A stretch of 64,000 bases of DNA from Liolophura sinensis (taxonomy: Eukaryota; Mollusca; Polyplacophora; Chitonida; Chitonidae), in NCBI RefSeq assembly GCF_032854445.1, contig NC_088295.1, positions 39,357,385 to 39,421,384 of the forward strand, in the 5' to 3' direction. The notes below the pieces were generated by a model. It saw only the letters and a list, made by a program, of their open reading frames with translations, did not search any database and was not told the origin of the DNA. Shown piece after piece: positions 43,501 to 46,500 of the stretch. The position numbers and the translations under genes are program-made. Within the stretch, counting starts at the first letter, position 1. Each line of letters opens with the position of its first letter.

Positions 43501-46500
43501 ATTACATTTCCATTAGCTATTTGGGATTGAAGTAGCTCCATGTGCCGCTACACTTTCGCTAGCACTAAAGAGTAGTAGTGCTACACAATGTTCTGTTTGA
43601 TTTCCTTGGAGTAGTTCTGCCAACTTGCACCTCAGGCACTTTCTTGTGTCTCTTGCGAAAGTATAGGCCAACACAAGTATACAACCTACTTTGGCAGCCT
43701 CACTTTCATTCCTTAGGAGATTGCCGGCCTTGAAGATCATCGCGCCATATCAAAATGAAACCTATCAGTCCTGATGTCCGTGGTGAGTGTAAACAATGTG
43801 GCCTGCTGTGAGTTGAGGGTTCCCACCGAAGTCACCTTAACATAGTATATTTTGAAACCTACAACTGCTGTAATATTTCACTGAAACAGATGAGAACTAC
43901 TAGCCAAAAAACTGGTCCACCTGTGTGGTCAGACGGGGCCAAATCCTGTGAAAGTCCTCAGTCATTGCTTACATGCAGGACGCGATCGCCATAACAGGTT
44001 GGTCTCATTTTAACATGGGCCATTGATTTTTGAAGCCAGCAATCTTCTAAGGAATAAAGGTTAGGCCACTGAAATTGTAGTGTGCATATTTTTTTGGTCT
44101 GTATTTTGCAGGAGACACGAGAAAAGTATTAATATTTTAATATTTTTATAATTATTTCGTACCCCATGGTACAATTCCCATGGTAAACTGGTGTAGAACT
44201 TACAGGTGTCCACGTTAAGCTTTAGTTGGCAGTGTGCAGTTTTGGGGTTTTTGCAGGGTGTTCTCATGGTGGGGCCACCTGGCACAGGAAAGACGATGTT
44301 AGCCAAAGCTGTGGCTACAGAATGCCATACTACCTTCTTTAATGTCTCTTCATCAAGCCTCACATCCAAATATAGAGGGGAATCTGAAAAACTGGTCCGG
44401 CTCCTCTTTGAAATGGTAAGAGCCTCATGTACATTTTATGTCACAATATTTTTCTAATGGGAATTGTGTCCCCTTTCTGTTTTTTTTTTTTCCTTTATTG
44501 CACGTGCTTGCCATCAGGGTGTGATGATGGTGGGACCTCCAGGGACTGGGAAGACCTTGCTGGCTAAGGCGGTGGCCACCGAGTGTCACACGACCTTTTT
44601 TAATGTCTCCTCGTCCTCCCTCTCCTCCAAGTATCGCGGCGAGTCTGAGAAACTTGTCCGCCTTCTCTTCGAGATGGTATGATGTGTGCTCCTGCTATGT
44701 GCTCCCGCTGTGTGCTCCCTAGGGGCTTCACTCAACCTAACCCAACCTCGCCGTAGTTGTATGTAGTGTGTACCGAGTACTTAACTTTTTCAGCCAGCCG
44801 GATTGTTCTAATGTCAACCTGACACACAGAGCATGTATCACTTTGTTCACTTCTTACCAAGTTAATAATTGTCACAGGTGTAACTACTTCTTTATACTGG
44901 GATACTGTAGACACTTTAGAGAATATACATGTAGTAGTGTCACACTTAGCCTCGATATTGTAGCTTTTGAATGTATTGATAAGCTCAGCATAATTGATTT
45001 TATTATATTTAACTGTGATGAGGGGAGTAGATTAGTGGAACTCTTGTAGCAAACCAGAAGTATTGTGACCATTCTGTCAAGCATTGGGACCGCTCTGTCA
45101 AGCATTGTGACAATTGTAACAAGCAGTGTGTCCATTCTGCGAGCTGTAAAAGTTTTTTTTTTTTTTAAATTTTAGATTTGTGTGCCAAATGGATCTGTAG
45201 GTAAAATGTAGTTTTTGTTAGTTGGTCATATTTCACTCATGGATCGGTACGGCCAAACCAGACTTAGGATTTGTAAGTCAAATATGCTGTAAGATATACA
45301 TGTATGTAAAAATAAAAAAAATTCATCCCCTTTAGAAAACTGCACCTCTCATAGTTTGCTTTGTAAACCTAACTTATTTTGTGATCTTTCATCTGCATCT
45401 GCATCTGTATTAAAATCCCACCCAGCGACCCTAACTACTGCTGACTGCTGAGCATTGTATTAACACTTAAGTTTGTTTGGTACAAGTACCAGTGGAATTA
45501 CCAGCTCTCTGGTTGAAGTGATGAAGATTGATTATGAATTCTATTTGTTGTTTGTACTCATTGCAATTTAAAGAGTGTCATATAATATTAATTCATAGAA
45601 CAGGTAATTTCACGTTGTCTTTGCATGGCTATGTTGAAAGACTTGTTTTGGAATCTTAGAATGGGTACTTACCTTTAGCTGTAAAAATTCTGAACGGTAT
45701 TTTCTATATGATGTATTTGTCTTTGTTAAAGGTTCATTTCTGTTGTTAACTCACCTTTCCCTTTTCAACATTACATTTATTGTGTGTATCATGCCTACTC
45801 GGAGGCACCTGTCATTCTGATTGATTCCATTTGCAGAAAATGTTGACAGATTTTGGGTTTGATAGATGTGTTCAGTTGGTAGTTAACTGATAAACTTATA
45901 CCCATGGACTCCACTTGTCTGCTAATTTGTTTTCAAAAGCTTGGTTCTGTTCTTTTGTACTCATGTGTGCGCCATGTTGTGCTCTTCTCTGCACCTTGTG
46001 TGAAGAGACTGTTGTTTTCTGTTAACGGACTCAGTTCTCGGTTCCATATGTGAACAGACTGCTGTCTTCTGCTCACAGGCTCAGTTCTCTGCACCTTGTG
46101 TGAAGAGACTGCTGTTTTCTGTTAACATACTGAGTTCTCGGTTCCCTGTGTGAAGAGACTGTTGTTTGCTCTTCACAGACTCAGTTCTTGGTTCCGAATG
46201 TGAACAGACTGTTGTTTCTGTTCACAGGTTCAGCTCCCGGTTCCCTGTGTGAACAGACTGTTGTTTTCTGTTCACAGACTCACTTCTCTGTTTCCTGTGT
46301 GAACAGACTCAGTTCTGTCACCCTGGTGGAAACAAACTGTTTTCTGTTCACAGACTCACTTCTCTGTTTCCTGTGTGAACAGACTCAGTTCTCTCACCCT
46401 TATGGAAACAGACTGTTGTTTTCTGTTCACAGGCTCAGTTCTCTTTTCCCTCTATGAACAGACTGTCGTTTTTCTGTTCTCAGGTTCAGTTCTTTTTTCC

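Follow-up and report, generated by a model that had tools for sequence, protein, structure and literature searches.

A chiton katanin p60 gene carries two copies of its Walker A exon

The window, by which we mean the whole 64,000-nt stretch of Liolophura sinensis DNA that was analysed, holds a katanin p60 gene of ten coding exons (40577-50074) plus one duplicate exon. Upstream of it lies an 893-aa open reading frame (905-3586, + strand) that is rich in Q, P and S, ends in LCEWDGCKK and is presumably part of an ARID2-like gene. The coding parts of the katanin gene are as follows.

40577..40738, + strand: exon 1 (coding part), start of the KATNA1_MIT domain
41090..41292, + strand: exon 2
41832..42024, + strand: exon 3 (basic linker)
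42405..42514, + strand: exon 4
43248..43353, + strand: exon 5
44257..44415, + strand: exon 6a, 159 nt, phase 0-0; Walker A with GKTM, ends at the end of pore loop 1 (from translation and borders)
44518..44676, + strand: exon 6b, 159 nt, phase 0-0; Walker A with GKTL (from translation and borders)
46916..47042, + strand: exon 7 (Walker B, IFIDEID)
47608..47740, + strand: exon 8, with a one-base frame break near 47697
48730..48856, + strand: exon 9 (AAA lid)
49876..50074, + strand: exon 10, Vps4_C and stop

Profile searches identified a KATNA1-type MIT domain, an AAA core, an AAA lid and Vps4_C in the encoded protein. The MIT domain scores 118 bits against PF21126 (cut-off 23.1) and finds the KATNA1 MIT domain in the PDB at an E value of 4e-23, the solved MIT matches there being to KATNA1 only, while the AAA core scores 109.6 bits against PF00004 and has the human katanins A1 and A-like 1 as its top PDB matches. 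The AAA lid (PF17862) and Vps4_C (PF09336) are present and located after the frame break of exon 8 in the assembly. This break places DIDEAL and RRLEKR in different frames of one uninterrupted, conserved exon; it is an assembly error, a polymorphism or a null allele, and it does not touch the 6a/6b pair. The published Liolophura assembly was built from 14x HiFi reads (PMC11068029) and its species has since been corrected to L. sinensis (PMC12441733); Liolophura RNA-seq from digestive gland, foot, gill, gonad and heart is also published (BioProject PRJNA973839, SAMN35319765-69).

Queries taken from the first exons, from exon 7 and from the last exon retrieved one p60 gene of the KATNA1/KATNAL1 type from the searchable part of the assembly, which may lack some stretches, and the next P-loop match in the genome, on C8, reads like KATNAL2 and carries GKTL. 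The AAA part is identical to human KATNA1 at 114 of 131 residues and to KATNAL1 at 114 of 131 as well, and the 105 residues of the C-terminal part share 73 with KATNAL1 vs 68 with KATNA1, so that across the AAA part, the C-terminal part and the MIT matches we found no consistent closeness to KATNAL1 over KATNA1. The initial annotation had named the gene KATNAL1, which is too specific for the sole p60 gene of this type that was found and that is equally similar to both human genes in its AAA part; judged by these similarities, KATNA1/KATNAL1 pro-orthologue is the most fitting name.

Exons 6a and 6b are both free of stop codons, are preceded by AG and followed by GT, and lie 102 nt apart, as established by translation and a check of the borders. 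Recounted over all 53 codons, the two exons agree in 17, differ silently in 33 and differ in the encoded amino acid in 3; this codon split, like their length, phase and spacing, is exactly as first reported. From 6a to 6b the amino-acid changes are L3M, M14L and T36S, and 34 of the 41 nucleotide differences fall at codon position 3. A direct-repeat search returned exactly two copies (75% identity across 168 nt), a genome search found no third copy of the exon in the katanin p60 gene, and a repeat search detected no residual similarity between the introns that flank 6a and 6b. Adjacent, homologous, equal in length and phase and bordered by intact splice sites, the two exons have the structure of a mutually exclusive exon (MXE) pair.

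On inspection, the splice sites are U2-like, with donors gtaaga and gtatga and acceptors cag, and none fits a U12 donor, which places the pair outside the U2/U12-incompatible class of MXEs. The two acceptors differ in strength. That of 6a is weak, with an AG-free zone of 15 nt and a last 40 nt that are 50% pyrimidine and broken by GGGG, and that of 6b is strong, with an AG-free zone of 93 nt, 75% pyrimidine and a run of T12. The splice sites had all been described as good, which is true of the intact AG/GT borders and of the 6b acceptor but not of the 6a acceptor. The joined 6a-6b reading frame is open, 159 being divisible by 3, as had been stated.

The duplication is old and both copies have been selected

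Silent sites are saturated between the two exons, and counting methods for dS fail as a result. We therefore report a codon-model fit with kappa fixed at 2, a first free fit having given a kappa of 0 and an unbounded dS. Under this model the lower 95% bound of dS between 6a and 6b is ~2.1 and omega is ~0.02 or below. An omega of 0.5, as expected if one copy were drifting freely, is rejected with a 2dlnL of ~69, a value that is approximate as the fit drove kappa to zero. Among degenerate codons for the same amino acid, 15 of 48 are identical, compared with 16.5 expected under independent draws from codon usage. Saturated silent sites combined with such a low omega indicate prolonged purifying selection on each copy, and we conclude that 6a/6b is a real, old tandem exon duplication in which selection has maintained both copies as coding sequence over a very long period, in agreement with the initial annotation.

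Three other origins of the pair were considered and rejected: a haplotype or assembly duplication of the exon, by the lack of similarity in the adjoining introns; a recent copy or gene conversion, by the saturation of silent sites; and an exon borrowed from a KATNA1 gene, by H24 and S34, which are common to 6a and 6b, and by the failure to find such a gene in the assembly.

A possible basis for steric exclusion in the intron between 6a and 6b

The 102 nt that separate the two exons contain the following elements.

44416..44517, + strand: intervening intron, 102 nt; all nine remaining introns of the gene are longer (351-2239 nt)
44423-44515, + strand: AG exclusion zone, 93 nt
44452..44458, + strand: predicted distant branch point TTCTAAT, its A at 44457 being intron nucleotide 42, 61 nt upstream of 6b
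44469..44499, + strand: long pyrimidine tract with T12 at 44480-44491, inside the AG exclusion zone

Scored with an approximate branch-point matrix, TTCTAAT reaches 5.54, the best of all positions in the 102-nt intron, and a match this good 20-50 nt from the donor arises in 5% of shuffles. A weaker candidate, CCTTTAT, occupies a canonical position 21 nt before 6b, where the steric limit would not apply. The AG-free zone was judged against other acceptors and the YAG sites of the window; dinucleotide shuffles preserve the near-absence of AG and are unsuited to this comparison. It measures 93 nt for 6b vs 15-56 nt for the other nine acceptors of the gene, and among the YAG sites of the whole window 0.64% have an AG-free zone that reaches 93 nt.

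This arrangement closely resembles that of known MXE pairs. In OGDH 4a/4b of vertebrates and in alpha-tropomyosin exons 2/3, homologous exons likewise flank a very short intron that has a large AG exclusion zone, a long pyrimidine tract and a distant branch point, 25-46 nt away from the donor, which for OGDH 4a/4b lies under a steric threshold of about 50 nt (PMC7969005); these are other genes, and their branch points were mapped experimentally whereas that of the chiton is predicted. A branch point <50 nt from the upstream donor has also served as a criterion for predicting human MXEs, with 9% of clusters qualifying (PMC5740500), and the predicted branch point at nucleotide 42 falls within this limit, given an approximate matrix and a threshold that comes from vertebrate work. 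Together, the predicted branch point at 42 nt, the 93-nt AG-free zone and the pyrimidine tract make mutually exclusive splicing of the pair likely. The pair does not belong to the NMD class of MXEs, as joint inclusion keeps the frame. Joint inclusion would nevertheless duplicate Walker A and skipping would remove it, and exclusion must hence act at splicing rather than through NMD.

Specifically, we propose that the 6b branch point, ~42 nt past the 6a donor, would not leave a single spliceosome enough room to join 6a to 6b, and that each transcript would consequently take either 5-6a-7 or 5-6b-7. By virtue of its strong pyrimidine tract 6b would be the default exon, which the weakness of the 6a acceptor also makes probable, and 6a would be used only if it were activated or if a U/CU-binding protein repressed 6b. 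Three conservative residues would distinguish the resulting proteins, and one of these follows immediately on the GKT of Walker A. The initial annotation had argued for exclusivity from the protein fold only, to which a steric mechanism at the RNA level is a plausible addition. Overall, we favour the reading that the Walker A/pore-loop-1 exon underwent an ancient tandem duplication in the one p60 gene of this type found in the chiton and that its copies, 6a and 6b, have been retained as a mutually exclusive pair, and we give it a probability of roughly 0.7.

Among the alternatives, looser use of the two exons is unlikely, though less so than the others: 6a might be a cassette or minor exon, with some 6a-6b joined transcripts and a protein with two P-loops. 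The candidate branch point 21 nt from 6b would permit such joining and the length of 159 nt would keep it in frame, but a doubled beta1-Walker A-alpha1 segment in the middle of an AAA domain should not fold, and the intron architecture favours steric exclusion. Docking and selector sites that pair in the RNA are known for Dscam and other MXE clusters. With this general precedent, exclusivity could stem from competing base pairing of this kind rather than from the branch-point distance, which we consider distinctly improbable; two-exon clusters do not require it, and in this single species the 102-nt intron showed no competing base pairing above shuffles with introns 5 and 6b-7 or with the exons, its duplexes being no stronger than shuffled ones (fractions 0.32-0.83).

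That one of the exons, or the entire gene copy, is a decaying pseudo-copy is the least probable of these accounts and would be highly surprising. The one-base frame break in exon 8 speaks for it, but in an assembly from 14x HiFi reads (PMC11068029) one indel is more readily explained by an error or a polymorphism, and the other exons are all intact. Moreover, 6a and 6b are stop-free, have kept their splice signals and differ almost entirely at silent sites, in line with the rejection of omega = 0.5, and a second p60 gene that could take over was not found in the assembly searched.

The exons differ at the residue that follows the Walker A GKT

Human KATNAL1 (6b5c) has GKTM and human KATNA1 (5zqm) has GKTL, as the initial annotation had correctly stated, and 6a carries the residue of KATNAL1, 6b that of KATNA1; MEI-1 has GKTL at the same position. 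Exon 6a is identical to human KATNAL1 at 51 of 53 residues, whereas 6b is identical to human KATNA1 at 49 of 53 and to 6a at 50 of 53, and 6a is nearer than 6b to both human proteins. H24 and S34 occur in 6a and 6b and in neither human protein, as do M3 and S36 in 6b, and over the 53-residue segment there are 2 differences between the human genes and 3 between the chiton exons. Residues H24 and S34, common to the two exons and absent from both human genes, make a separate, lineage-specific duplication probable. The simplest reading of these residues would be that the exon was duplicated in the protostome or molluscan lineage and that the L/M difference arose in parallel, although a phylogenetic argument from 53 residues is weak and gene conversion could mimic the pattern. 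It had been suggested that the two exons embody the same switch as the two vertebrate genes, but with H24 and S34 shared and 6b nearer to 6a than to KATNA1, a common event is unlikely.

L and M are both frequent at the position after GKT in archaeal and bacterial AAA relatives, a tally that covers distant relatives from viral and prokaryote collections and, as the query GTGKTMLA enriches M, speaks to tolerance and not to frequency. As both residues are common among AAA relatives, a kinetic difference between the 6a and 6b forms does not follow. L526 of p97 contacts CB-5083, an ATP-competitive inhibitor that binds at the ATP site (PMC13324599). By our reading of the Walker A motif, the residue after GKT appears to align with L526, which makes an effect on nucleotide binding possible; two ATPases with different kinetics are a conjecture.

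Splice-boundary minisatellites in the katanin gene

Three introns of the gene contain minisatellites. The array in intron 4 (42478-43129) has ~12 units of 54-56 nt, which repeat the coding end of exon 4 together with the adjoining donor (ACAGAAAAACCCAAATGTACACTG up to the junction, GTAAGTC after it) and provide ten further copies of this boundary, one of them identical at 36 of 36 positions. In intron 6b-7, ~17 units of 50 nt (45985-46918) form decoy acceptors, many repeating the opening codons of exon 7 along with the 3′ splice site before them (TTTTCTCTTCACAG up to the junction, GCTCAGTTCT after it), with eleven further copies of the boundary at 27/36 or better. The third array, in intron 8 (48189-48684), has units of 44-46 nt and ends 45 nt before exon 9, whose boundary it does not match. 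A scan of 74 other exon loci yielded 3 clear cases of splice-boundary arrays, two exons of a CCT3-like gene (L218 and L226, C8:53.40-53.41 Mb) and one of a CCT5-like gene (L229, C1:72.04 Mb), in which the exon end and donor are repeated up to ten times; a further locus (L227) is repeat-rich and not clearly of the splice-boundary type. Such arrays have been described in amphioxus as mirages, which like those of the chiton are minisatellites that repeat exon-intron boundaries, and were suggested to be general in cephalochordates (PMC3087553). Our literature search found no report of mirages in molluscs, and the splice-boundary minisatellites may be more surprising than the exon pair.

Discussion

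Very likely a mutually exclusive pair, 6a/6b adds a new case to a known kind of splicing switch. A literature search turned up no katanin for which mutually exclusive exons had been reported; as evidence of absence this is weak. Old, conservative pairs of homologous exons under selection are also known from Cacophony/CACNA1 and other ancient tandem duplicated exon substitution events, but the Cacophony isoforms are far more divergent than those of the chiton, with 16 of 39 residues conserved (PMC9741552). The muscle myosin heavy chain of protostomes offers a functional parallel, in that MXEs let one gene tune an ATPase for which vertebrates use several genes (PMC3912159); unlike katanin it is not an AAA protein, and it has many clusters whose variants diverge more in protein sequence. 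The assembly itself contains two neighbouring exons (C1:26642195-26642299 and 26643291-26643386) that encode one and the same portion of the myosin head (profile positions 118/121-152) and are candidates for the classical mutually exclusive exons of myosin heavy chain.

Human KATNA1 and KATNAL1 share with the chiton gene the domain set MIT-AAA-lid-Vps4_C and the occurrence of GKTL and GKTM after Walker A, but there the two forms are two genes and not two exons. It is conceivable, if doubtful, that one lophotrochozoan gene gives rise by steric exclusive splicing to two functionally distinct katanin ATPases, in parallel to the vertebrate split into KATNA1 (GKTL) and KATNAL1 (GKTM), with gene duplication and exon duplication reaching the same active-site switch. 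If both isoforms are made, the chiton would provide a natural experiment in which ATPases that differ in the nucleotide-binding segment only have been kept apart for a very long time. With it one could test directly whether microtubule severing is tuned by the residue that follows Walker A, and it would raise the further question of whether animals without the KATNA1/KATNAL1 gene pair gain the same diversity by splicing.
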